Assembly (NCBI GenBank): GCA_021802775.1
Contig: JAJZRJ010000004.1
Span: 1-64,000, forward strand
Reading direction: 5' to 3'
DNA from: Deltaproteobacteria bacterium
GTDB taxonomy: Bacteria; Desulfobacterota; Desulfobulbia; Desulfobulbales; Desulfurivibrionaceae
Length of the DNA stretch: 64,000 bases
Below are positions 7,038 to 24,718 of this stretch, piece after piece (position 1 is the stretch's first letter; every line of letters starts with the position of its first letter). A program made the translations under genes and the position numbers. The notes under the pieces were generated by a model. The model saw only the letters and a list, made by a program, of their open reading frames with translations, made no database searches and was not told the origin of the DNA.

Positions 7038-10000
7038 GTGAGCATTGGCACTTTAATTGGTTATTTCGCAAAATACGATGAAGCGCACAACGCCCGTCGG
7101 CAACTCGCGAAACAAAAATTCCGTCGTACTGCCTTGGTGCATAAGGGGGCGAATGGAGATGTTCGCATAACGAATTCTTTCCTCAGGCTTCGTATTTACG
7201 GCGTGACCCTGACTGTCATTCTGTTTAGCGGGATCGCCGAAGTGGCATCCCTTGTCCTCCAACAGTCAGGCGTGCTTCCGGGCGGCAACCTTTTTCCTCT
7301 TCTTTTGCCAGCAGTCACAATCGGCGCTTTGGCCGCTCTATTAGGGATAAGACGTTCCAGGCTTGGTGTTGAGCCAAGGGTCATACATGATCACGCCCGC
7401 TGGCTCGTGTCCGGGGAATCCGTTCTGATTCTCCAGGCACCCGTCGAATCTTTGCCCCGCCCGTTGGCTTTGCTACGGGAAAGCGGTGATATTCCTCCGA
7501 CGTTGTTCGTCATGCATCGCAAGTGCGAGCGGCGTGTCGAGGCTCGGGGGCACAAGGTACAGCTTTCCCCTGCCCAGGTCATTGAGCATGCGCAACGTCA
7601 TGCCCGAGAGCAGCAGGTGGACCTGAAACCGCATCGTAGTTTTGAATTGCTCAAGCGCCTCAAGCACTCCCGGCAATGGGTCCGTCAAGTCTGTATGGAC
7701 CTTGCCGCGGCGAGCCGCTTGGAACAAAAAGCCACGCCGGCGGCCGATTGGATCCTTGATAACGAGTACATTCTGGAGGGGAATACACGCGATGTATTAC
7801 GGAACCTCCCCCGGCGTTTTTACCAACATCTGCCCACCTTGGCCTCTGATCCCTACCGCGGGTTGCCGTGCGTCTATGGTCTGGCCAAAAATCTTGTTTC
7901 CCATACAGAGCTGCGCCTTGACCGGGAGAATATCCTGGCGTTTATCGAGGCCCACCAATCCGTGCGCACGCTGACCATCGGCGAACTCTGGGCCACCCCC
8001 CAGATGCTGCGCATCGCGCTGATCGAAAGCATCCAGAATCTGGCCGTCACCGCTCTGACCAATCTGCGTGAGCGTCAGTTGGCCAACTTCTGGGCGAATC
8101 GGCTGATCGCCGCCAATCGCCGCGATGCCAACCAACTCTTTGCAATCCTGGAAGAACTCGCCACCACAGAGTTGCATCCCAGTCCGTATTTCGCCACGCA
8201 GTTGGTAAGCCTGCTGTATGACGAGGCCGCCGCATTGGCGCCGATCAAAAACTGGCTTGAGCGCACGCTCAAAACCCCCCTGCACGACCTTAATCTACGG
8301 GAGCAGAACCGGCAGGCCAGGGAGCAGTTGGCCAGCGGCAATGCCTTCACCAGCCTGCGTCAGCTTACCCTGCTGGACTGGCGGGAGATCTTCGAGCAAC
8401 TCAGCCGGGTGGAGCAGGTGTTGCGCCGCGATCCTTCCGGGATTTATGCACAAATGGATTTCGCCACCCGCGATCGTTGTCGCCGGACGGTCGAAGACCT
8501 TGCCCGCGCTGCCGGACAACCCGAGGAACAGGTTGCCGAGCGCGTCATCATGCTGGCGACGCAGGCAGGACATGAAGCAACAAGCGGTGAACAAGACAGC
8601 TACGTCGGCACCTGGCTGGTCGGCAAGGGACGGGCTGAGCTGGCCCGGTTGCTGGCTTGCAGTGAAAAGCTCCGTTACCGCATGCTGGAATGGATCTATT
8701 GCCACCACCTCGCTATCTACGCCTTTGGCATCGGCGGCTTCTCCGCGCTGTTCGTTTTTTTGATCGTCGTTTTTGGCCTGCTCCCAGGCTTCGGCCAGGC
8801 TGGGACATCGCTTGCCATCCGATTCGGCCTGAGTCTGCTTCTACTTATTCCGGTCAGCCAGCTGGCCATCGAGGTGGTCAATTACCTGATCACGCGATTT
8901 TTGCCGCCCCGATCTTTGCCCAAGATGGATTTCGAGAAGTCTGGGATTCCCGATGCCTTCCGCACTTTGGTGGTCGTGCCGATGATGCTGGTGAATGCGG
9001 AGACGATCCGAGACGAGGTGGAAAAGCTGGAAATCCGCTACCTGGCCAACAAGGAAGCAAATCTCTTTTTCAGCCTGTTCTCGGACTACACCGATTCAGC
9101 CACGTTTTCCCGTGAAGAGGACAAAGGGCTGCTCGAAATCGCGAGAGCATACCTCACAGAGCTCAATGGGCGCCATGGCGGCGAGCGTTTTTTCCTCTTC
9201 CATCGGGAACGCACCTGGAGCGAATCCGAGCAGAAATTCATCGGCTGGGAGCGAAAGCGGGGCAAGCTGGAGGAACTGAATTGCCTGATCGACGGGACGC
9301 GGCCAGAAAATGCTCCTGATTTGGTATACGTGGGCGACCCGGATCAGCTGGCAGACATCCGCTTCATCATCACCCTGGACAGCGACACCCAGTTGCCGCA
9401 CGCCTCGGCCCGCAGACTGGTCGAAACCCTGGCGCACCCCCTCAATCAGCCCCGCTTCGATGCCGCAGGCAGGATCATGGACGGCTATACCATCATCCAG
9501 CCGCGGGTGAGCCCGACCTTACCGAGCACGAGCGCCTCGGTCTTCAGCCGCCTTTTCAGCGATGCAGTGGGGATCGACCCCTATACCCAGGCGATTTCCG
9601 ATGTCTATCAAGACTTAAGCGGAGAAGGATCGTACCACGGCAAGGGGATATACGATGTCCGCGCCTTCAGCCGGGTGCTCTCGGGACGATTCCCTGAAGA
9701 GTGGGTGCTGAGCCATGACCTGCTCGAAGGGGCGCATGTCCGGGTGGGTCTGGCCAGCGATATTGAGCTTTTTGATGATTTTCCTCAAGGGTATCAGAGC
9801 TACAGCAGTCGGGCCCATCGCTGGATTCGCGGGGACTGGCAGATAGCGGGGTGGATTTTTCCGCTTGTTCCCCAGGCTTCAGGCGGACAGGGGCCGAACC
9901 CGCTTTCCCCCTTGAACCGTTGGAAGATCCTCGACAATTTGCGCCGTAGCCTCCTGCCGATCACGAGCCTGCTCCTGTTGACCGCCTCCTGGTTTATCTC

Positions 10001-13000
10001 CCCAAAGATCGGTGGAATCGCCACGCTGGTGGTCGGCATGCAACTGCTCTTTCACCCCTTGGCGCAGCCCTTCACCATGGCTACCACCCACAAGGGATTG
10101 ATGTACTTCTCCCCGACCAAACTGTTGCACGACCTGCTGCGGGCCTTTGTCGATGGGGCGCTGTTGCCGCACCAAGCAGCGGTGGCCCTGGATGCCATCC
10201 TCCGGGTCTGCTACCGCCGCATGATCTCCCGGCGCGATTTATTGGAGTGGACCGCCCAATCAACCCATTGGCGCGCCTCCCGCCACCAACCGCTCTTTCT
10301 CGCGCACCTGGCTCTGGGGAGCCTCTTCAGCATGATCGTGGGTGCGGCGATCTGGCACCTCATGCCGACCAGCCTGCCTGTTGCCGCCCTCTGGCTCGTT
10401 TTGTGGTTTTTCTCTCCGTTGTTCGGTTGGCTCCTGAATCTGCGACCCATTGAACAGCGGCGGGGAAAACCGTTATCCGAGACGGACCGCCGTTTCCTCA
10501 GGCAGGTTGCCCGGCGGACCTGGCGTTATTTCTCCTCCTTTGTCAACGCCGACACCTCCTGGTTGCCCCCCGATAACTACCAGGTTGCCCACCAAAACAG
10601 TCTGGCCATGCGAACCAGCCCGACCAACATCGGCCTCTGGATGACCAGTGCCCTAGGGGCCTATGATTCCGGCTATCTGACCATTAACCAGGTCGTGGAA
10701 AAGCTTACCGATACCATGGCAACCATCGGCCGTCTGGAGCGCTACCAAGGCCATCTTCTGAACTGGTACGATATCCAGACCCTGGTCCCGCTTGAACCCC
10801 GCTACGTCTCCACGGTGGACAGCGGCAATTTGCTGGGTGGTCTGTGGGCCTTGGAGCAAGGTCTTGACGAGTTGATGCATGCTCCCCTCTTGGATGGCAA
10901 GGCCTTTGCCGGCCTTGCCGACACCGGGGAAATCTTGAAACAAGACGCAGCCCTGGAAGGAATTACCGGCCTGTATCATCAGACACTCGACCAACTCCTT
11001 GCTGAATGGAATGCTCCGTTGTCTAGCATCGTCGATCTTCTCCGGTTGCAACGGCGGACGGAGGTCAATGTCAAGTCTATGGTCGTTGCCGCAGGAGCCG
11101 CCGCGCCATGGACTGCTGAACTTGCACAACAGGTGGCGGCCTGGGCTCAGAACAGTGACCGCTATCTCGCCTGGATCGAAATCCTTGCGGAAAAAACCGA
11201 AGATGAGCTGGCCCCCTTGGGCACGGTGGCCCTGCTCGCCATCCAGCATGATCTTTTAAGGGCGCCTTCGCTGCACGATCTTGCCCATGACCGGATCGGC
11301 TCGATCACGATTCTTCGCGCGATCCGCAAGGAATCTCTCACAACCAGCGACCCCCTCACCCCCTGGCTCGACCGGGTTATCAAGGCCTTCGCTACCTCGC
11401 AGTGGCTGGCCGGAGAAACCCTGGGAATGGCGACTCGGCTCCTTGAGGATGTCCGCGAGTTGTCCGTGGCGCTGGACATGCAATTCCTCTATGACCGAGG
11501 AAGCAAACTGTTCGCCATCGGCTTTAATGTTTCCACGGACGTTCTGGACACTTCCCGCTATGATCTCCTGGCCAGTGAGGCGCGATTCGGGAGTTTCGTT
11601 GCCATTGCCCGGGGCGATGTCCCCCTGGAACACTGGTTCTCCATGAGCCGCCTCTATGGCGCCATAGGGAGGCAGCGGGTGCTGCTCAGCTGGGCCGGGA
11701 CCATGTTCGAATACCTGATGCCGCTCTTGTTCCAGTACTCCTACGGCAACTCGCTGTTGGACAAGGCGGCCCGGGAAGCGGTGCAGGCGCAGATCGCTTA
11801 TGGTCGCACGCGGCGGGTGCCGTGGGGTATTTCCGAGTCCGCCTTTGGCAATATGGATCTCAACAAAACCTATCAGTACAAGGCCTTCGGCGTTCCGCTG
11901 CTCGGCTTGAAACGCGGCCTGGAGGAACAGCTGGTCATCGCGCCCTATGCCACCTTGCTGGCCCTGAACCTGGCGCCCGGTGAGACCGTGCGGAACCTGA
12001 AACAACTTGCCGGGTTGGGGCTGCTCGCTGATTATGGGTATTACGAGGCCATGGATTTCAGCCGCCAAACGCAGCGGGTGGGCAAACGCGGGGTGATAAT
12101 CAAGGCGTATATGGCCCATCACCAGGGCATGGCGTTTCTGGCCTTAACCAACTTCCTCCACGGCAACCCGTTCCCGCGCCGCTTTCATAGCGATCCACGG
12201 GTGCGTGCCTTTGAGGCGCTCCTTCAGGAACGCATCCCGACCCTTCCTGCGCTGCACCTGACCTCAACGCGGGAGAATGAGCCCACGTTGCTGGGCGTAG
12301 ACCAGATTGCCCCGGCGGAAAGCATCTTTACCACGCCCCATACCGCCATTCCCCACAGTCTGTTGCTCAGCAACGGCCGCTATGGCGTGATGGTCACCAA
12401 CAGCGGAGGCGGCTACAGTCAGTGGGGCGGCCAGGAACTCACCCGCTGGCGGTCGGATCAGACCTGTGATGCAATGGGAACCTTCTGTTACATCCATGAG
12501 GCCAATCCGGATCGGGTCTGGTCCAGTACCTATCAACCGGCCGATGGGAAGCTGGAAGGGTATTCGGTCAACTTTGCTCTTGACCGGGCCGTGTTCCGGC
12601 GTGACGACAATGGGCTGCATACCGAAACAGAGGTGATCGTCTCGCCGGAAGATGACGTGGAGATTCGGAGGATTACCCTGATCAACAGGACAACCCACGC
12701 CCGTCATCTTAACCTCACCAGCTACGTTGAACTCTCCATGGCGCCCCACCGCGCGGATCGCCAGCATCCAGCCTTTAACAAGCTGTTCATCCAGACCGAA
12801 GCGCTTCCAGAGCAGCAAGTTCTCCTCGCCTACCGGCGACCACGCAGCAAAAACGAACGGCATCTGTATGTGGCCCACCGCTTGACCTTTGAGCACACAG
12901 GTGTTGACAGCCCTCCTGAAAAAGATTGGCAGTTTGAAACCGACCGCAGAAGGTTTATCGGTCGTGGGCACCCCCTCGCCAAACCCATGGGGGCCATGCA

Positions 13001-16000
13001 AGAGCTCGGCAACAGCCAGGGATTTGTCCTGGACCCGAGCTTAAGCCTGCGGCGGAGTCTTACTCTGGAACCGGGCCAGCGCACCCAGGTTTCCCTGGTG
13101 CTTGCTGCCGGGGCAACCCGCCAGCAGGTTCTGTTGCTGATGGATAAATACTCTGACCCCCAGGAGATCAACCGGGCCATGGATTTTGCCTGGGTCTCGA
13201 CCCAGCAGCAGTTGCAAATGCTGCACCTCCAGCCCGACGAAGCCCGCCGTTTCCAGCAACTGGCAAGTCATCTGCTGTTCCCCAACCCCCTCTTGCGTGC
13301 TGCCGGCGAGCGCCTCGCAGCGAATCGCAAGGGTCAAGCCGGATTGTGGCCCTACGGCATCTCGGGCGACCTGCCCATAGCCCTGGTTACCATCGGGGAG
13401 ACGCGGGATATCAGTCTGGCCCGCCAGATGCTCCAGGCCCATACCTATTGGCGGATGCACGGATTATCATCCGATCTGGTGATCCTCAATGAGGAACCCG
13501 GGAGTTATGAGCGTCCTCTCCAGGAACGATTGGAACGGTTGATTCAGGCCCATTCCCTCCTGAGCGGGACGGACCAACCGGGCGGAATTTTCCTGCGCAA
13601 TGCGGCGCTCATTCCGGAGGAAGATCTGAATCTTCTCAAGACCGTGGCCAGTGTCATGCTGGTGGCGGCACGCGGCACACTGCCCCAGCAATTGCGGGCG
13701 CCGGTGGAGGCTCCCGAATTGTTGGAAAGACTGGGCCGCAAACGCGCGGTCCGAGAGCCCTCGGCTCCGCTCCCTTTCATGGAGCTGAACTACTTCAACA
13801 GTCTCGGTGGGTTTACCCCGGATGGCCGTGAATACGCGATCTATCTCGGCCCCAACACCAACACCCCGGCCCCCTGGGTGAACGTCATTGCCAACCCGAC
13901 CTTCGGCACCATGGTCAGCGAAACCGGGTCCGGCTTTACCTGGTACGGCAACAGCCAGCGCAATCGTCTGACCGGCTGGTCCAACGACCCGGTCCTGGAC
14001 CCGGCCTCGGAAGCGCTGTACATCCGCGACGAGGAGAGCGGCGTCTTTTGGTCGCCGACCGCGGCGCCGATCCGTGAGGCAACCGCTTATCGAGCCCGGC
14101 ACGGGGCGGGCTATACGGTCTTTGAGCATAACAGCAACGGGATCGAACAGGAGCTGACCGTCTTTGTCCCCGTGGATGAAAATGGGGGGCAGCCGATCAA
14201 GCTCCAGCGGCTGCGGCTTACCAATGGTTCTTCCAGAAGACGCAGGCTTTCGCTGACCTATTATGTGGAGTTGACCCTGGGCGAGAATCGGGAAACCTCC
14301 CAGATGCACGTGATGACCAACTGGGATGACGAAGCCCAGGCCGTGCTCGCGCAAAACCGCTACCACCCCGAGTATCCGGAGCGGATCGCCTTCGCGGCCA
14401 TGAGTCCGCGGGCCGACTCATACGGCGGCGACCGCACCGCCTTCATCGGTCGAAACCGCACGTTGGCAAACCCGCTAGCCATGGAACTGATCCAGTTGTC
14501 ACAACGGACCGGCGCTGGACTGGACCCATGCGCAACGCTTCGGGTTTCCCTGGAATTGGCTCCGGGCGAGCAACGTGATATCACCTGTATGCTGGGGCAG
14601 GCTGAGTCCATGGCCCAGGCCCGGCAGCTGGTGCTCCGTTTTCAAGAGGAGAATGCCTTGGAGGAGGCTTTGGAGCAAACCAGGGCCTGGTGGGATGCAC
14701 TGCTCGGTACCATTGAAGTACACACCCCGGAACTGGCCGCCGATCTGCTGATCAACCGTTGGCTACAGTACCAGTCCTTAAGTTGCCGCCTCTGGGGGCG
14801 TTCCGCTTTTTATCAATCCGGCGGCGCTTTCGGTTTCCGCGATCAGCTGCAGGATGTCATGGCCTTTCTCTACTCCAGACCCGAACTTGCCCGCGCTCAG
14901 ATTCTGTTGGCCGCCAGCCGACAGTTCAAGGAAGGGGATGTCCAGCATTGGTGGCATGAGCCTGCCGGAGCAGGAATCCGCTCACGAATCTCCGACGATC
15001 TGCTCTGGCTCCCCTATGTGGTGGCGCAGTATGTCCGTACAACCGGCGATGTGGACATTCTCAAGACGGAGGTGACCTTCCTCAACGCCCCCATCCTGGC
15101 AGATGATCAGTATGAGGTGTTCTCCACCCCGGAGGTCACCTTTGAACGCGCCACCCTCTTTGAACACTGTCAGCGTGCGGTCAGTCACGGTCTGACCGTC
15201 GGACCCCATGGCCTGCCTCTAATGGGAACCGGGGATTGGAACGACGGCATGAATCTGGTGGGCGCCGGAGGCAAGGGAGAAAGCGTCTGGCTCGCCTGGT
15301 TCCTCTGCGAGCTGCTACAGGGAATGGTCGAAATGTCCAATCTGCTGCAAGAACCGAAGCTGGGACAAACCTACCAAAAGGAAAGGCATGAGCTGATCCA
15401 GAGGGTAGAGAAGGCGGGATGGGATGGAGAGTGGTATCTGCGCGGGACCTTCGATGATGGCTCTCTCCTTGGTTCCGCGGCAAACACCGAGGCACGAATC
15501 GATTCCCTGCCCCAATCGTGGGCATGGCTTTCCGGTGGTGCCGACTCGAACCGTGCGGATCAAGGCCTGGAATCGGCCTGGAACCATCTTGTCCGCAAGG
15601 ATGAAGGGCTGGTCCTTCTTTTTACGCCTCCCTTCGACACATCCGAACCCTCGCCCGGCTACATAAAGGGGTGTCCCCCTGGAGTGCGGGAGAATGGCGG
15701 CCAGTATACCCATGCCGCCCTCTGGATGGCCATGGCCATGGCCCGCAAAGGGGATGGGGAGCGGGCGGTGCAGATGCTGCGCATGCTCAATCCCATCGAG
15801 CATGCCCGCGATGCGGAATCGGTGTGGCACTACGGGGTTGAGCCGTACGTGGTCGCGGCCGATGTATACCGTTTGCCTGGACGGATCGGGCAGGGAGGCT
15901 GGTCCTGGTATACCGGGGCGGCAGCATGGATGTACCGGGCCTGGGTGGAAGAGGTCTTGGGTTTACAGGTGCAGGGCGACGAGCTGCGGGTATATCCGGT

Positions 16001-16244
16001 CATTCCTGCGGCCTGGCCGGGCTTCAGTATCAGCTATCGGCACGGAGAAACAATCTACGCGATTCAGGTAGAGAATCCGCAGGGTTGTGAGCGCGGGGTC
16101 GCTTGGGTGGAGATGGACGGCCAGCGCGTGATCGGTGACGTTATCCCTCTGAAACGAGAATTGACAAAACATCAAGTTGTGGTCAGGATGGGAGATAAGA
16201 AAAAATCGAGTGAGGATGCAAAACCGCATCCCGGCAAAAATTAA
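7038..16244 (+). CDS. ndvB: Cyclic beta-1,2-glucan synthase (NdvB-type GT84-GH94)
   Basis: A 3068-aa membrane enzyme that builds cyclic beta-1,2-glucans from UDP-glucose, exported for envelope or osmotic functions. It starts at GTG 7038, seven bases after AAAGGA. Residues 1-190 form an added N-terminal region with two membrane helices (about 45-68 and 85-104). Further helices lie near 554-615 and 975-1150. The GT84 glycosyltransferase domain spans about 640-960, with DSDTQ at 781 and RWIRGDWQ near 928. Two carbohydrate-binding segments follow (about 1750-2020 and 2260-2440). The GH94 phosphorylase domain (about 2560-3040), which trims chain length, carries GTGDWNDGMN at 2730-2739. The gene is intact and not in an operon. 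An insertion sequence ends 38 bp upstream, so the native promoter may be lost. Confidence 0.93.
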   Translation: MSIGTLIGYFAKYDEAHNARRQLAKQKFRRTALVHKGANGDVRITNSFLRLRIYGVTLTVILFSGIAEVASLVLQQSGVLPGGNLFPLLLPAVTIGALAALLGIRRSRLGVEPRVIHDHARWLVSGESVLILQAPVESLPRPLALLRESGDIPPTLFVMHRKCERRVEARGHKVQLSPAQVIEHAQRHAREQQVDLKPHRSFELLKRLKHSRQWVRQVCMDLAAASRLEQKATPAADWILDNEYILEGNTRDVLRNLPRRFYQHLPTLASDPYRGLPCVYGLAKNLVSHTELRLDRENILAFIEAHQSVRTLTIGELWATPQMLRIALIESIQNLAVTALTNLRERQLANFWANRLIAANRRDANQLFAILEELATTELHPSPYFATQLVSLLYDEAAALAPIKNWLERTLKTPLHDLNLREQNRQAREQLASGNAFTSLRQLTLLDWREIFEQLSRVEQVLRRDPSGIYAQMDFATRDRCRRTVEDLARAAGQPEEQVAERVIMLATQAGHEATSGEQDSYVGTWLVGKGRAELARLLACSEKLRYRMLEWIYCHHLAIYAFGIGGFSALFVFLIVVFGLLPGFGQAGTSLAIRFGLSLLLLIPVSQLAIEVVNYLITRFLPPRSLPKMDFEKSGIPDAFRTLVVVPMMLVNAETIRDEVEKLEIRYLANKEANLFFSLFSDYTDSATFSREEDKGLLEIARAYLTELNGRHGGERFFLFHRERTWSESEQKFIGWERKRGKLEELNCLIDGTRPENAPDLVYVGDPDQLADIRFIITLDSDTQLPHASARRLVETLAHPLNQPRFDAAGRIMDGYTIIQPRVSPTLPSTSASVFSRLFSDAVGIDPYTQAISDVYQDLSGEGSYHGKGIYDVRAFSRVLSGRFPEEWVLSHDLLEGAHVRVGLASDIELFDDFPQGYQSYSSRAHRWIRGDWQIAGWIFPLVPQASGGQGPNPLSPLNRWKILDNLRRSLLPITSLLLLTASWFISPKIGGIATLVVGMQLLFHPLAQPFTMATTHKGLMYFSPTKLLHDLLRAFVDGALLPHQAAVALDAILRVCYRRMISRRDLLEWTAQSTHWRASRHQPLFLAHLALGSLFSMIVGAAIWHLMPTSLPVAALWLVLWFFSPLFGWLLNLRPIEQRRGKPLSETDRRFLRQVARRTWRYFSSFVNADTSWLPPDNYQVAHQNSLAMRTSPTNIGLWMTSALGAYDSGYLTINQVVEKLTDTMATIGRLERYQGHLLNWYDIQTLVPLEPRYVSTVDSGNLLGGLWALEQGLDELMHAPLLDGKAFAGLADTGEILKQDAALEGITGLYHQTLDQLLAEWNAPLSSIVDLLRLQRRTEVNVKSMVVAAGAAAPWTAELAQQVAAWAQNSDRYLAWIEILAEKTEDELAPLGTVALLAIQHDLLRAPSLHDLAHDRIGSITILRAIRKESLTTSDPLTPWLDRVIKAFATSQWLAGETLGMATRLLEDVRELSVALDMQFLYDRGSKLFAIGFNVSTDVLDTSRYDLLASEARFGSFVAIARGDVPLEHWFSMSRLYGAIGRQRVLLSWAGTMFEYLMPLLFQYSYGNSLLDKAAREAVQAQIAYGRTRRVPWGISESAFGNMDLNKTYQYKAFGVPLLGLKRGLEEQLVIAPYATLLALNLAPGETVRNLKQLAGLGLLADYGYYEAMDFSRQTQRVGKRGVIIKAYMAHHQGMAFLALTNFLHGNPFPRRFHSDPRVRAFEALLQERIPTLPALHLTSTRENEPTLLGVDQIAPAESIFTTPHTAIPHSLLLSNGRYGVMVTNSGGGYSQWGGQELTRWRSDQTCDAMGTFCYIHEANPDRVWSSTYQPADGKLEGYSVNFALDRAVFRRDDNGLHTETEVIVSPEDDVEIRRITLINRTTHARHLNLTSYVELSMAPHRADRQHPAFNKLFIQTEALPEQQVLLAYRRPRSKNERHLYVAHRLTFEHTGVDSPPEKDWQFETDRRRFIGRGHPLAKPMGAMQELGNSQGFVLDPSLSLRRSLTLEPGQRTQVSLVLAAGATRQQVLLLMDKYSDPQEINRAMDFAWVSTQQQLQMLHLQPDEARRFQQLASHLLFPNPLLRAAGERLAANRKGQAGLWPYGISGDLPIALVTIGETRDISLARQMLQAHTYWRMHGLSSDLVILNEEPGSYERPLQERLERLIQAHSLLSGTDQPGGIFLRNAALIPEEDLNLLKTVASVMLVAARGTLPQQLRAPVEAPELLERLGRKRAVREPSAPLPFMELNYFNSLGGFTPDGREYAIYLGPNTNTPAPWVNVIANPTFGTMVSETGSGFTWYGNSQRNRLTGWSNDPVLDPASEALYIRDEESGVFWSPTAAPIREATAYRARHGAGYTVFEHNSNGIEQELTVFVPVDENGGQPIKLQRLRLTNGSSRRRRLSLTYYVELTLGENRETSQMHVMTNWDDEAQAVLAQNRYHPEYPERIAFAAMSPRADSYGGDRTAFIGRNRTLANPLAMELIQLSQRTGAGLDPCATLRVSLELAPGEQRDITCMLGQAESMAQARQLVLRFQEENALEEALEQTRAWWDALLGTIEVHTPELAADLLINRWLQYQSLSCRLWGRSAFYQSGGAFGFRDQLQDVMAFLYSRPELARAQILLAASRQFKEGDVQHWWHEPAGAGIRSRISDDLLWLPYVVAQYVRTTGDVDILKTEVTFLNAPILADDQYEVFSTPEVTFERATLFEHCQRAVSHGLTVGPHGLPLMGTGDWNDGMNLVGAGGKGESVWLAWFLCELLQGMVEMSNLLQEPKLGQTYQKERHELIQRVEKAGWDGEWYLRGTFDDGSLLGSAANTEARIDSLPQSWAWLSGGADSNRADQGLESAWNHLVRKDEGLVLLFTPPFDTSEPSPGYIKGCPPGVRENGGQYTHAALWMAMAMARKGDGERAVQMLRMLNPIEHARDAESVWHYGVEPYVVAADVYRLPGRIGQGGWSWYTGAAAWMYRAWVEEVLGLQVQGDELRVYPVIPAAWPGFSISYRHGETIYAIQVENPQGCERGVAWVEMDGQRVIGDVIPLKRELTKHQVVVRMGDKKKSSEDAKPHPGKN

Positions 16245-17492: not shown

Positions 17493-18473
17493 TCAGCCGA
17501 TCTTGCCGTACACCTTGGCGTACTCCTTGGCAAAATAGGTGAGGATCATATCCGCCCCGGCGCGGCGGATGCTGATGAGGCTCTCGGCCATGACCCGTTC
17601 GCCGTCGAGCCAGCCGCGCTCGGCCGCGGCCTTAATCATGGCGTACTCGCCGCTCACCTGATAGGCGGCAATGGGCAGATCGAACTCATCGCGCAGCAGG
17701 CGGATCACATCAAGGTAGGGCATGGCGGGCTTCACCATCAGGATGTCGGCGCCCTCATCCACATCAAGTGTCGCCTCGCGCAGCGCCTCGCGCATATTGG
17801 CCGGGTCCATCTGGTAGGCCTTGCGGTCGCCCTCCTGGGGCGCGCAGTCGGCGGCATCGCGGAAGGGGCCGTAAAAAGCCGAGGCGTACTTCACCGCGTA
17901 GGACATGATCGGCACCATCTCGAAGTTGTTCTCGTCAAGTATGGCGCGGATCGCCCCAACCCGGCCGTCCATCATGTCGGAGGGCGCCACCATGTCGGCC
18001 CCGGCCACCGCGTGCGACAGGGCGGTCTGGGCGAGAATCTCCAGGGTGGCGTCGTTGTCCACCTGCCGATTGAGGATCACCCCGCAATGGCCGTGGCTGG
18101 TGTATTCGCAGAGGCAGACGTCGGTGGTGACCATGAGCTGCGGCGCCTTGTTCTTCAGCTCCTTGATCGCCCGCTGGATGATGCCGTCCTTGGCGTGCGC
18201 GCCGGAGCCCACTGGATCCTTCTTCTCCGGCAGACCGAAAAGGATGACATGGTTGATCCCGAGCTTCAGGCACTCCTGGGCCTCCCTGGTCAACTGATCG
18301 ACGCTCATCCGGAAGACGCCGGGCATGGAGCCCACCTCCTCCCGCTTGTTCTTGCCCGGCATGATGAAGAGCGGACAGATGAGCTGCGCCGGCGACAGCG
18401 AGGTTTCGCGGATCAGCGCGCGCAACGGCTCATTACGCCGCAGGCGGCGGGGACGATACTCGGGGAACATCAT
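17493..18473 (-). CDS. hemB: Delta-aminolevulinic acid dehydratase (porphobilinogen synthase)
   Basis: HemB condenses two 5-aminolevulinate molecules to porphobilinogen in haem, sirohaem and cobalamin synthesis. The 326-aa protein has the zinc-type cysteine cluster [13 protein letters not shown] (Cys120, Cys122, Cys130) and two Schiff-base lysines, Lys195 in [17 protein letters not shown] and Lys248 in [10 protein letters not shown]. It is the last gene of the run from the DUF4390 gene through ntrYX and the ClpX-like ATPase, 26 bp after the latter, and ends at a strong terminator. Confidence 0.97.
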
Positions 18474-18499: not shown

Positions 18500-20257
18500 C
18501 TATTCGACTTTAAATGCCTTGCTCACCAGGGCGTTGATGAATTTGTCCGGCGCCTCGATTCCCTCGGCCGGGATCACCACGCTGGTGATTTCCTTTTTCT
18601 GGCTCAGCAACCGCAGCCCGTATTCCATGGTCTGGAGAATGGTGTCGCAGGTCCGGCCGATGGCCGCCTCGTCGCGCGGCTCGCGAGCCAGGATGCGGTC
18701 GATGGCATCGTCACCGAAAGTGACCGTGATCCCGCACTTTTCCGAGATCCTCTTCGCGCAGTCGAGCACCCGCTGCACCAGGAGAATGAACTGGTCGCAC
18801 ACCTCGCGCGGGTCAAGGTCTTCAGCCTGGGCCTGCCTGGCCATCATCGCGAGCCTTGCGGGCGTGGCCAGTACCTCGTGGGTTTCAAGATAATCGCCCA
18901 TGCGCTCCAGGATGAAATCGACCAGTCGCTTGTACTCCACATGCTCCAGCACCTCATAGCGTTCCCGGTGCAGGGCCTGGCAGGCCGGATCGTCGAGCAG
19001 TCGCAGCAACTCGGCCTTGGGGTTGCGCACCATGTCGAGGGAGACCACCAGATGACGGATCGAGGTGGAAGGCAGCTTCTTTTCAAAATGGAGCAGGGTG
19101 CGCTCCATGACGCTCGACAGGCCCCGGGCACCGGTGCGCTCGCGGCTCGCCCGCTCGGCAATCTCGCGCAGGGCCACATCCTCGAACTGAATCTTGATGC
19201 CATAGGCGCGGAAATCCTGCTTCTTGCCCACGGTCACCGCGCTGTTGGGGTTGAGCAAAATCGCATAGAGGTCATCGACGCTCAGTTCATCCAGTACCGC
19301 CAGCACCGGCAACCGGCCAACAAACTCGCTCTCAAAGCCGAACTGGATAAGATCCTCGGCCTTGACCTGCTTCAGGAACTTGCCGCTATCCTTGGCGGAA
19401 TGGACCGCCTTTTCAAAACCGATGGCCTGCTGCTGCACGCGCTTGCGGATAATCTCGTCAAGGCCGGCAAAGGCGCCGCTCATGATGAAGAGGATGTTGC
19501 GGGTGTTCACACTCCGCTTCTCCCGCTTGCCGGTGGAGCGGAAGTGCTCGATGGCCTCGATCTGCGAGATCGGGTCGTGGGGCACCTTCAGTTCCACCTC
19601 GGTCTCTTCCATCGGCTTGAGCAAGGCGCGTTGCACGCCGGTGCGGGAAACATCGGCACCGAGACGGTATTCGCTGGCCGCGATCTTGTCGATCTCGTCG
19701 ATGTAGATGATGCCGTACTGGGCGCGGTCGAGGTCGCCGTCCACCTGGCGCACCAGGTCGCGCACCAGGTCCTCCACGTCGCCGCCCACGTAACCGGTCT
19801 CGCTAAACTTGGTGGCATCGCCCTTGATGAACGGCACGCCCAGGCGCTGGGCGATGAGCTTGATGAGAAAGGTCTTGCCCACGCCGGTGGGCCCCATCAT
19901 CAGCACGTTGTTCTTGATCTGGCCGACGTTGCGCTTGGCCTGGCGCGGGTGCTTCAGGGCGTAGCTGATGCGGTTGAAGTGGGTGCAGATCTTGGTGGCA
20001 AGGATTGCCTTGGCCTCGTCCTGCCGCACCACGTACTGATCGAGGTAGGTGATCAATTCCTCGGGGGTGATGTCGAAGTGGAACGGCGCAGCCGCCTTGG
20101 GCGGGATCACGATGCCGCCACCCTCCTCCGGCTCGGCCATGGGGAAGAGGCCGGAGGAGACGATCTTCACCTTGCGGCCGTACTTGCGGGTCAGATATTC
20201 GCCGATCTCGCGCTCCAGCTCTTTCTGATCCGGCAGGTTGGTGTCGTGATCCGTCAT
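18500..20257 (-). CDS. ClpX-like AAA+ ATPase lacking the zinc-binding domain, with a long C-terminal extension
   Basis: A 585-aa protein starting [16 protein letters not shown]. The AAA+ core matches ClpX: Walker A GPTGVGKT (122-129), Walker B IIYIDEID (183-190), an IGF tripeptide (279-281) at the place of the ClpP-docking loop, EFVGRLPV (311-318) and sensor 2 TGARGL (375-380). Ordinary ClpX (about 420 aa) begins with a four-cysteine zinc domain; here a charged, cysteine-free segment replaces it. Residues from about 405 to 585 form an extra helical region of unknown role. An unfoldase working with ClpP is inferred, with substrate choice probably different from ClpX. It lies between ntrX and hemB in one direction. 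Confidence 0.85.
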
Positions 20258-20297: not shown

Positions 20298-21683
20298 TTA
20301 TTCCCCTTCGCCTGCCTCCAGAGCGAACGACTTCATCTTCTTATGGAGATGACTCCGCTCCAGCCCGATTTGTTCCGCGGTCTGCGAGACATTGCCGTTG
20401 TTCGCCGCCAGTTGCAGGCCGAGATAGTCGCGCTCAAAGAGCCGCTTCGCCTCCTTGTAGGAGAGGTTTCTGTAGGCGGCCAGATACTCCTCCGGGCTTG
20501 AGGGCACCACCTTGGCCACGCCGCCACCGAGCAGCATCCGCACCTCCACCTCACCAACCTCCTCGCCAAGGCTCATGATCAATGCGCGTTCGACAAAATT
20601 CCGTAACTCGCGGACATTGCCGGGCCAGGGATGCTGGGCCATGAGCTGCAACGCGGCCTTGGCAAAGCGTTTGCGGCCGAACCCCTTACGGGTGCAATCG
20701 GCCACGAAATCATCCACCAAAAACGGCAGATCCTCCAGCCGCTCGCGGAGCGGCGGCACAAAGATGGGCACCACATTGAGCCGGTAGAAGAGGTCGGCCC
20801 GGAAGGTGCCCCGCTCGATCTCCTGTTCCAGATTCTTGTTGGTGGCGGCCAGCACCCGGACATTGACGCTGATGGTCTTGGCGCCGCCCACCCGCTCGAA
20901 CTTCTGTTCCTGCAAAATGCGCAGGATTTTGGCCTGGGTCTTCAGGCTCATGTCGCCGATCTCGTCGAGAAAGAGCATGCCGCCGTTGGCCAGGTCGAAC
21001 TTACCGCGCCGGCGGTCGGTGGCGCCGGTAAACGAACCTTTTTCATGGCCAAAAAGTTCGCTCTCGATCAATTCCTCGGGAATGGCTGCGCAGTTGATCG
21101 CCACCAGGGGCTTGGCGGCCAGCGGCGAGAGCCGGTGGATGGTCTGGGCCACCAGTTCCTTGCCGGTGCCATGCTCGCCGCGGATGAGCACCCAGGCCTC
21201 GGTGGGAGCGACCCGCTCGATCTGTGCCTTGAGCTGCTGCATGACCGGCGAGTTGCCGGTGATCCCGCGATGCTGGCCGGCCTGCTCGCGCAAGATGTGG
21301 TTTTCCTGGGCCAGTGCGGCGAGTTGCAGGGCATTGTGCAGCGCCAGAATGATCTTGTCGTAGGAGAGCGGTTTTTCGATGAAGTCAAAGGCGCCGAGGC
21401 GGGTGGCCTGCACCGCGGTCTCAATGGTGCCGTGACCGGAGATCATGATTACCGGCAGGTCAGGATAGAGTTCCTTGATCCTTTTGAGCGCCTCCATGCC
21501 GTCCATGCCCGGCATCCAGATGTCGAGCAGCACCAGATCGGCCCGCACCTCTTCAAGGCGGGCGAGGCCTTCCTCGGCGTTGGCGGCAGAGAGCGGCACA
21601 AATCCCTCGTCCGACAGGATGCCGGAGAGCGATTCGCGGATGCTCGCCTCGTCGTCGATGATCAGAATCCGTTGCTGCGCCAT
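20298..21683 (-). CDS. ntrX: Sigma-54-dependent response regulator, NtrX type
   Basis: A 461-aa activator with a receiver domain (phospho-acceptor Asp54 in LLDIWMPGMDG), a central AAA+ sigma-54 interaction domain (GEHGTGKE Walker A near 170; the loop motif is GSFTGA instead of the usual GAFTGA; FLDEIGDM Walker B) and a C-terminal Fis-type helix-turn-helix (GNVSQTAEQIGLERSHLHKKM). It is 44 bp downstream of the cognate kinase gene ntrY. Phosphorylation by NtrY should permit activation of sigma-54 promoters; targets cannot be read from this sequence. NtrX proteins often function in envelope, respiratory or nitrogen control. Confidence 0.9.
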   Translation of the reverse strand: MAQQRILIIDDEASIRESLSGILSDEGFVPLSAANAEEGLARLEEVRADLVLLDIWMPGMDGMEALKRIKELYPDLPVIMISGHGTIETAVQATRLGAFDFIEKPLSYDKIILALHNALQLAALAQENHILREQAGQHRGITGNSPVMQQLKAQIERVAPTEAWVLIRGEHGTGKELVAQTIHRLSPLAAKPLVAINCAAIPEELIESELFGHEKGSFTGATDRRRGKFDLANGGMLFLDEIGDMSLKTQAKILRILQEQKFERVGGAKTISVNVRVLAATNKNLEQEIERGTFRADLFYRLNVVPIFVPPLRERLEDLPFLVDDFVADCTRKGFGRKRFAKAALQLMAQHPWPGNVRELRNFVERALIMSLGEEVGEVEVRMLLGGGVAKVVPSSPEEYLAAYRNLSYKEAKRLFERDYLGLQLAANNGNVSQTAEQIGLERSHLHKKMKSFALEAGEGE

Positions 21684-21727: not shown

Positions 21728-23965
21728 CTATTCAAGGAGCAGGGGCAGTTCCACCACAAAGACCGCACCAGCCGGCTCGTTGTCCCGCACCCGGATGACG
21801 CCGCCGTGATCCGCCACCGCGGTGCCGGCAATGGCAAGGCCGAGGCCGGTGCCGGATTTCTTGGTGGAGAAATAGGGCTCGAAGAGCCGCGACTTGTCCT
21901 CGTCGCGCACACCGGGGCCGTTGTCGCGCACCTCCAGGATCACCAGCTTTTGTTCGCGGTCGCAGCCGATCACCACGTCGATGGCCCCGCGTTCCGCCAT
22001 CGCGGCCACCGCGTTATCGAGCAGGTTGATGAAGACCCGTTTCAACTGCTTCAAATCGAATAAAAACTCCGGCATCCCCTCATCCACTGCCAGACTGAAA
22101 GCAATGTCCCGGTGTGCCTCCTGATAAAGGGCCAGCACCTCCTTCGCCATCTCGGCCAGGTTGTTGCGCGACTTCTGGATGGCCGGCATGCGGGCAAAGC
22201 TGGAGAACTCGCTCACCAGCCGCTGCAACTCATCGACCTGGTTGATGATCGTCTTGGTGCAGAGATCAAAGACCTCCCCCTCCGAGGCGAACCGATCGAG
22301 GTATTTCTTGCGCAACCGCTGCGCCGAAAGCTGGATCGGAGTCAGCGGATTCTTCACCTCGTGGGCGATGCGGCGCGCCACCTCGCGCCAGGCTGCCATG
22401 CGCTGGGCCTTTTCCAGCTCGGTCAGGTTGTCGAAGACCAGCACCACACCGAGCGGCCGGTGCTCCTCATCCTCCAGGCGGGTGAAATTCACCCGCAGCG
22501 AGAAGGTTTCCTCGCCAACAGTGAGCCGCAAGGGGCGCTGGATCGAAGGCCTGCCCGAACGGGCCAGCTCGGCGAGGAAGGTCTCCAGGACATGCAGATG
22601 CTCCTGGCGCAGGATGGCCCGATAATGGCGGCCGAGCAAGTCCTCCTTGCGGATCTTGAGCAGTTCCTCGGCAAAACGGTTGATGGTGATGATCTTGCCG
22701 GAATCGTCGAGGGAGATGACGCCGGCGGCCACGTTCTGGAGGATGATTTCGGTATAGCGCCGCCGGTTGTCGAGTTCCTGGCTGGTGGCCACGATCTGCC
22801 CGCGGCTGACGCGGAGGTCGTGGGTCATCTGGTTGAAGGAATCAACCAGGGTGCCCATCTCGTCGCCCGAGGTCTTTTCCAGCACAAAGTCGAGATCCCC
22901 CTCGGCGATCCGATGGGTGGCGTCGGCGAGCCGCTTGATCGGGCCGGTGAGGCCATTGGCCACATAAAAACCGAACCAGACCGCGCAGAAAACAATAAGC
23001 AGGGTCACGATGAGCAGTATGACGATAAGGCTCGTCTTGAGCGGCGCCTTGAGCATCATGAGCTGGCGGTAGCCTTCGAGACCGGTGGAGATGGTCTCCA
23101 TCCGCGCCAATCGCTCCGGCGGGATGAGGCGGGCGATGACCAGCACCCCGGGCCGGTCCTCGCCAAAACGAACCAGGGTAAAACCGCGGATCAGTTCCCC
23201 GCCGCCGGGGAAAGGCTGGGCCGCCACCAACTCCCGCTCGCCCTCCAGGGTACGGCGCAGATATTCCATGGGGATCTCCGGCAGGGCCTGCCCGGCCAGA
23301 GAGCGCGTGACCTCGGCGGCCACCACCACGCGCTCGTCGGAGAGTACTTCCACGCTGGCCAGACCATGTCCGGTCAGCGCCTCCTTCAGGGTCGGGGTCA
23401 GGGGGTGCCCGACCGGGCGCGCTTCCAGCTGCCCGGCGATGTTCCGTCCCTGGCGTACCACCTCGTCCTTGGTGCCCTGGTAGACCTCTTTGGCGATATT
23501 GAGCGATTCGAGCAGCGACTGCTCGACATTGCTGTTGAACCAGTAGTCCATGCTGGTGGAAACGAACTGCAGGGCCACGAAAAAAAGCAGCCCGGTAGGG
23601 ATGAGCGATAGCGAGATAAACGAGATAACCAGCTTGGTGCGCAATCGGGTGCCGAGGATGCGGCGTTTGCGCTCGAACACAAGCTGGGTCAGTTCGCGCA
23701 GCACCAGGAAGATCACCAGCAACAGGAGCAGCATATTGAGGTTGATGAGCACGAAGATGAGGACGTTGCCGCTGACCGGCAACGGCACGGTACCCAATTC
23801 GAAGACGCGGGTTTCCAGATAGGTGAAGAGCGCGAAAAGGACCAGGGAGACGAGGATGATGATCCGGATGCGCTTCTTGCGGCGCCGCCGATCCCGCTCG
23901 ATGACCGCTTCCTCGGGATTCCGAGGATCAGTAGCGGAACTGAACCGTGTACCAGTCGGTTTCAA
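21728..23965 (-). CDS. ntrY: NtrY-type membrane sensor histidine kinase
   Basis: A 745-aa sensor with several N-terminal membrane helices (IIILVSLVLFALFTYLET, VLIFVLINLNMLLLLLVIFL, VISFISLSLIPTGLLFFV), a periplasmic domain, another helix near 335, HAMP, PAS, a HisKA domain with the phospho-site in RRIAHEVKNPLTPIQLSAQ and an ATP-binding domain (NLLDNAVAAM, DNGPGV, GTGLGLAI). This is the NtrY layout. The assigned start is TTG at 23965, overlapping the DUF4390 gene by 38 bp; the ribosome-binding site is weak, so the true start may be slightly downstream. Paired with ntrX. Confidence 0.9.
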   Translation of the reverse strand: MKPTGTRFSSATDPRNPEEAVIERDRRRRKKRIRIIILVSLVLFALFTYLETRVFELGTVPLPVSGNVLIFVLINLNMLLLLLVIFLVLRELTQLVFERKRRILGTRLRTKLVISFISLSLIPTGLLFFVALQFVSTSMDYWFNSNVEQSLLESLNIAKEVYQGTKDEVVRQGRNIAGQLEARPVGHPLTPTLKEALTGHGLASVEVLSDERVVVAAEVTRSLAGQALPEIPMEYLRRTLEGERELVAAQPFPGGGELIRGFTLVRFGEDRPGVLVIARLIPPERLARMETISTGLEGYRQLMMLKAPLKTSLIVILLIVTLLIVFCAVWFGFYVANGLTGPIKRLADATHRIAEGDLDFVLEKTSGDEMGTLVDSFNQMTHDLRVSRGQIVATSQELDNRRRYTEIILQNVAAGVISLDDSGKIITINRFAEELLKIRKEDLLGRHYRAILRQEHLHVLETFLAELARSGRPSIQRPLRLTVGEETFSLRVNFTRLEDEEHRPLGVVLVFDNLTELEKAQRMAAWREVARRIAHEVKNPLTPIQLSAQRLRKKYLDRFASEGEVFDLCTKTIINQVDELQRLVSEFSSFARMPAIQKSRNNLAEMAKEVLALYQEAHRDIAFSLAVDEGMPEFLFDLKQLKRVFINLLDNAVAAMAERGAIDVVIGCDREQKLVILEVRDNGPGVRDEDKSRLFEPYFSTKKSGTGLGLAIAGTAVADHGGVIRVRDNEPAGAVFVVELPLLLE

Positions 23966-24527
23966 AATCCCACAGGCTCCAGAAAGGGATGACGTAATGG
24001 AAATAGAGCGGCAGCGTCTTCTCCGCCAGACGCGCCTTGACCTTGAGCGTATATTCGGCGTCCGCCATCAGGGCAGTGAGCGGACTTAAGCCAAAGCCGT
24101 TGACCTGGGCCATCAGTTCACGGGCCTGGGCCATGGTCTTGACGATGACGGTCTTGCCGTTGTGTTCGCCGTACACGATGCGGTACTCTTCCTTCAGATT
24201 ATCGTAGGTCAGGATGTGCTCGAAGGTGCGGACCACCACCTTCTGGTCGAGCCAGCCGCTGCGATGGCGGTAGAGCTCGACATAAAAGGTGAAGGTCACC
24301 GGGATACCGCTCTGCACCCCCTTTTCCATCTCCGGGGTAAAGGCGTTGCGCACCGTGAGGTAGAGCAGCACCTCGCGGCTCGAATTGGTGACGATCACCT
24401 CGTCGATATTGGCCTGCCTGGCCGGCTGCGCCGACACCGGCACCGGCAGCACGAGAGCCAGCAGCAAGAAGAGCATGGGCCAGTTCCAGCCGCGCACCAT
24501 GGGATGAAAAAAACGCGCCACGTCCAT
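23928..24527 (-). CDS. DUF4390 domain protein, exported
   Basis: A 199-aa protein from the ATG at 24527, six bases after AAGGA; a longer in-frame start exists at 24599. It has a signal-like hydrophobic segment (MLFLLLALVLPVPVSA) followed by a beta-rich domain that matches DUF4390 (ANIDEVIVTNSSREVLLYLT; DFETDWYTVQFRY at the C-terminus). Proteins of this family are commonly encoded just upstream of NtrY-like kinases, as here with a 38-bp overlap, so an envelope role connected with NtrYX sensing is inferred. The biochemical function is unknown. Confidence 0.75.
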   Translation of the reverse strand: MDVARFFHPMVRGWNWPMLFLLLALVLPVPVSAQPARQANIDEVIVTNSSREVLLYLTVRNAFTPEMEKGVQSGIPVTFTFYVELYRHRSGWLDQKVVVRTFEHILTYDNLKEEYRIVYGEHNGKTVIVKTMAQARELMAQVNGFGLSPLTALMADAEYTLKVKARLAEKTLPLYFHYVIPFWSLWDFETDWYTVQFRY

Positions 24528-24718
24528 CGGTATCCTTCGCTGCCCCCGCGCCGGAGTCAGAGGCATCCGGCAACGGCGAGCAGTCATGAGCTTCGCCATA
24601 AAAAAACGCGCATCCGGGACATCCCCACGCGCCGGTCACATCCACCCTTATAACTGGCAAAGAATGTTTTGGCAAGCAAATCAGCGCGTTAGCGCCGCAA
24701 GCCGATACCGGGCGGCGA

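Follow-up and report, generated by a model that had tools for sequence, protein, structure and literature searches.

Unfoldases of the ClpX type are textbook machines, and in mitochondria ClpX is already known to control heme synthesis. The stretch of DNA analysed here (the window, 64,000 nt, to whose positions all coordinates refer) raises the question of what a ClpX-like protein without a zinc finger might be doing next to a heme biosynthesis gene. The first-pass annotation had placed such a gene between ntrX and hemB, and an intact 585-aa open reading frame is indeed found there, separated from these neighbours by 40 bp and 26 bp, respectively. We refer to the ClpX-like subfamily that it represents as ClpXL, a name coined in this analysis.

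A second ClpX-type gene between ntrX and hemB

17493..18473, minus strand: hemB, porphobilinogen synthase (NF006762, 518 bits against a cut-off of 297), downstream of clpXL
18500..20257, minus strand: clpXL, 585 aa, ATG start, no internal stop
20298..21683, minus strand: NtrX-like response regulator (NF051870, 503 bits, below the cut-off of 600), upstream of clpXL
21728..23965, minus strand: ntrY-like sensor kinase, assigned from the open reading frame and a gene order conserved in relatives

Over residues ~60–425, the ClpXL core shares ~40% identity with solved ClpX structures, and its best NCBIfam models are those of ClpX, but the scores fall below the equivalog cut-offs (320.8 against 359 and 295.2 against 370.75 bits). 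The window’s genome also encodes a genuine zinc-finger ClpX (L001) on contig C50, within a tig-clpP-clpX locus, and the single zf-C4_ClpX match in this genome is located at that gene and not at clpXL, bearing out the earlier reading of clpXL as a paralogue. One clear ClpP and one HslU are encoded beside the two ClpX-type proteins. We rejected the explanation of clpXL as a truncated replacement of ClpX, since the genome has ClpX as well.

Conserved motor motifs with an altered N-terminal segment and RKH loop

20072..20257, minus strand: N-terminal segment (residues 1–62), without Cys
19307..20071, minus strand: AAA+ large domain (63–317)
19871..19894, minus strand: Walker A, GPTGVGKT (122–129), near-invariant in 129 sequences
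19784..19795, minus strand: pore-1 loop GYVG (155–158), invariant in 129 of 129
19685..19711, minus strand: Walker B (183–191), D187 and E188 invariant
19508..19609, minus strand: conserved loop (217–250) at the position of the ClpX RKH loop
19415..19423, minus strand: IGF ClpP-docking tripeptide (279–281)
18986..19306, minus strand: canonical AAA+ small domain with sensor-2 GAR (318–424)
18812..18985, minus strand: helical linker (425–482), from AlphaFold models
18503..18811, minus strand: second, degenerate AAA+ small domain (483–585), by hhalign and VIA-align

Across 129 ClpXL sequences, the Walker A and B motifs, the GYVG loop, the arginine finger and the sensor-2 GAR are invariant or nearly so; a pseudogene reading of clpXL was rejected on this conservation. 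The IGF tripeptide that had been recognised at the ClpP-docking position is kept in orthologues as well: all 129 sequences have xGF (IGF in 94, MGF in 24, LGF in 10 and VGF in one), although the residues around it vary. An ATP-dependent remodeller that has lost its partnership with ClpP, and acts as a stand-alone, chaperone-like protein, would be compatible with an assembly changed by the extra C-terminal domain and the altered loops, ClpP binding itself being a prediction, but retention of the docking loop amid variable surroundings and the presence of one clear ClpP in the genome argue against it, and we consider it unlikely. Because another clpX exists and the xGF loop is universal in the sample, the earlier proposal that ClpXL uses ClpP and selects different substrates appears well grounded by sequence.

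As the first-pass annotation had stated, the N-terminal zinc domain is replaced by a cysteine-free segment of 62 residues, in which a Pfam search found no match and which bears a conserved PDQKELEKEL.EYL.KKYG helix. CxxC is absent from this segment in 129 of 129 ClpXL sequences, and 125 of them have no Cys there at all. The RKH loop, described as important for ssrA-tag recognition (PMC11423568), is replaced in ClpXL by a longer, highly conserved loop. ClpXL thus resembles ClpX (NF003745/TIGR00382) in its AAA+ core, GYVG pore loop, sensor-2 GAR and xGF loop, and differs from it in the missing zinc domain and RKH loop, in an added linker and second small domain, in its sub-cut-off scores and in its separate position on the tree.

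The C-terminal extension contains a second AAA+ small domain

ClpXL had been assigned a C-terminal extension of 180 residues, thought to form an extra helical domain. The extension exists, but with the canonical small domain reaching to about residue 424 it is ~160 aa long; its linker is helical, but the second half has an alpha/beta fold and duplicates the AAA+ small domain. In relatives the extension is steady in length (155–174 aa in all but one cut-off sequence) and much less conserved in sequence than the ClpXL core. Pfam recognised nothing in it, and a plasmid search with it gave no match. In hhalign comparisons, the second half of the extension matched ClpXL’s own AAA+ small domain (P 97.6, E 4e-12); it matched the small domain of genuine ClpX more weakly (P 91, E 1e-6) and did not match the AAA+ large domain, with 20 column-shuffled control profiles reaching P 2.8 at most. 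The extension profile had an additional match in several genomes, in the same frame and immediately upstream, where the canonical small domain is located.

Modelled alone with AlphaFold, the extension reached a pLDDT of 96, and AlphaFold predicts the order helix-strand-helix-helix-strand-helix-helix for both small-domain copies. Foldseek by itself gave weak matches to the C-terminal model (E of at least 0.19), most of them ClpX or HslU, and VIA-align and hhalign were used in addition; by VIA-align, the closest solved structures were the small domains of ClpX and HslU, with a best Z of 8.1 that alone would be modest. Because these independent lines agree, we conclude that the extension is a helical linker of ~58 residues followed by a degenerate second copy of the AAA+ small domain.

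ClpXL is an added paralogue in a separate clade

Our sample comprised 297 genomes of one phylum, most of them metagenome-assembled. Searching with the extension profile recovered ClpXL in 143 of the 297 and in 73 of 146 relatives. Zinc-finger ClpX is present in 283 of the 297 genomes, and ClpXL is therefore an added paralogue. The best 80 matches in a genome-collection scan were titled as Desulfobacterota/Deltaproteobacteria-type or unspecific MAGs. In a tree of 106 cores (67 ClpXL rows and 37 ClpX rows, including E. coli), ClpXL and genuine ClpX formed separate clades with 100/99 support, indicating that ClpXL did not arise by recent duplication of the local ClpX; the exact branching order is uncertain, the stems being long. 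HslU resembles ClpXL in being a ClpX/HslU-type ATPase without a zinc domain, but it branches outside both clades and lacks the xGF loop, and the window’s genome has an HslU of its own.

In the open-access literature we found no earlier description of the ClpXL subfamily and no link between ClpX and the ahb genes. ClpXL is an ancient, widespread ClpX relative, apparently undescribed so far. The nearest described protein, judging by its published description, is Myxococcus xanthus ClpX3 (MXAN_2743); it is reported to be 43.5% identical to E. coli ClpX, to be without an N-domain and RKH motif and to occur beside an ordinary ClpX, and the accessible part of that publication gives no description of its C-terminus and no heme link (PMC11423568).

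Linkage to heme genes is deep and linkage to ntrYX is lineage-local

Genomic context was counted in 48 genomes, one per family, with genes in relatives called by our own codon-usage caller and representatives of AhbC, AhbD, AhbA and HemB identified by NCBIfam models. Heme genes (hemB, ahbC, ahbD or ahbA/B) lie downstream of clpXL, within the next four genes and on the same strand, in 35 of the 48, and the genes upstream vary among families. The ahbC product is didecarboxysiroheme deacetylase, that of ahbD is heme synthase, and ahbA/B encode siroheme decarboxylase. Where both clpXL and ahbC occur, they are at most 3 kb apart in 66 of 94 genomes, against a chance expectation that we estimate at well under one genome; neither the counts nor the co-occurrence odds ratio of 2.9 is corrected for shared ancestry. 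ClpXL occurs without AhbC in 49 of 143 genomes and AhbC without ClpXL in 61.

The window’s own genome is among those 49, a model search having found no AhbC over the cut-off in it, and its heme-gene link to clpXL is hemB alone. This genome may have an unusual heme route, or its assembly may be incomplete; next to its hemE lies a gene (G000:C8:70326-71345, L199) for a radical SAM protein related to AhbC/AhbD.

The first-pass annotation had looked to the ntrY-ntrX-clpXL-hemB order as one that might be conserved across the phylum. It is found in the majority of loci with at least 57% identity, as would suit a regulator of the NtrYX two-component system or of envelope stress, but ntrX is immediately upstream of clpXL in only 3 of the 48 families, and we regard such a role as unlikely. 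One locus (L128) unites both contexts, as ntrY-ntrX-clpXL-ahbC-hemB-ahbD-ahbA. The ntrYX link is lineage-local, and the heme-gene linkage is deep. Of the targets that had been suggested for ClpXL, heme enzymes are favoured as the best candidate substrates because the heme-gene linkage recurs, and NtrX or envelope-stress proteins are weakened.

A DnaJ context and the case for general proteostasis

A DnaJ gene follows clpXL in 10 of the 48 families, and 3 of the 48 have neither heme genes nor DnaJ. The main rival to the heme-enzyme reading is general proteostasis, in which ClpXL would be a protein-quality-control unfoldase of these anaerobes and the heme genes merely stable neighbours. Consistent with this, one clade (28 of 128 loci) has a CbpA-type dnaJ directly after clpXL, mostly overlapping it or a few bases away, followed in part by genes for a Lon-like protease and rsmE; M. 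xanthus ClpX3, in which N-domain and RKH motif are likewise missing, contributes to heat tolerance (PMC11423568). Heme linkage is nevertheless the more frequent of the two and is retained from family to family as other neighbours change, and the DnaJ context, with or without the Lon-like protease gene, clusters in one part of the tree and groups there with few changes. We see general quality control as a possible explanation, though a rather doubtful one.

The block clpXL, CbpA-type dnaJ, Lon-like (COG1067-type) protease and rsmE is conserved in L052, L053, L055, L125 and others.

A candidate unfoldase for heme biosynthesis enzymes

Returning to heme enzymes as the likeliest substrates, our preferred reading, put forward tentatively and at a little below an even chance, is that ClpXL is a ClpP-docking unfoldase that works beside ordinary ClpX and is specialised for enzymes of tetrapyrrole/heme biosynthesis. 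The linkage of clpXL to heme genes is not function. As we envisage it, ClpXL would be a second, ancient ClpX-type hexameric unfoldase that threads substrates through its GYVG pore at the expense of ATP and could hand them over to ClpP via the xGF loop. Its presumed substrate-facing parts (the N-terminal helix, the conserved loop and the appended second small domain) are altered relative to ClpX, and the combination of a conserved motor and ClpP loop with these rebuilt parts suggests a ClpP-compatible unfoldase with substrates of its own. Most likely, ClpXL would unfold one or more enzymes of the heme pathway, such as HemB, AhbC/D or those upstream of them, and in this way control their amount or cofactor state, either with or without degradation by ClpP.

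Mitochondrial ClpX, which partially unfolds and thereby activates ALA synthase (PMC7077987), offers a functional analogy as a ClpX-type unfoldase that controls a heme-pathway enzyme; it is, however, a true ClpX with ALAS as its target, whereas the heme target of ClpXL is a candidate only. Lon and ClpAP target HemA when it is complexed with heme (PMC6399207).

If the heme-enzyme reading is correct, ClpXL would be a natural example of a ClpXP-type machine redirected to a single pathway. It is an ancient paralogue, carried by about half of the genomes sampled from the phylum; its motor is unchanged, the surfaces predicted to handle substrates have been replaced, and its gene keeps company with heme genes. 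With it, sulfate reducers and their relatives can be used to test the link between ClpX-type unfoldases and heme. A more specific version, which we think possible but less probable than not by a clear measure, is that anaerobic bacteria have in ClpXL a dedicated and conserved protease branch of the ClpXP type that serves their (siroheme-dependent) heme biosynthesis. In it, the tandem AAA+ small domain would be a new module for binding substrates or adaptors, and a pseudo-receiver protein would act as the adaptor in some lineages.

Neighbouring genes of note

In nine loci (L047, L131, L139, L147, L150, L151, L160, L162 and L166), a small receiver-domain protein is encoded between clpXL and hemB or ahbC, as the first gene after clpXL, the intergenic distances being about -4 to 33 bp; the phospho-acceptor Asp is missing in nine of nine. 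The response-regulator proteins RssB and CpdR serve ClpX as adaptors, and by analogy the Asp-less protein beside clpXL is a candidate adaptor.

Within the window, a 223-aa gene (23928-24599, minus strand) that we label DUF4390-like, and for which an NCBIfam search gave no match, is conserved in relatives in a position between hflX and ntrY. A 3068-aa open reading frame (7038-16244, plus strand) encodes a putative cyclic beta-1,2-glucan synthase, judged by eye from its resemblance.
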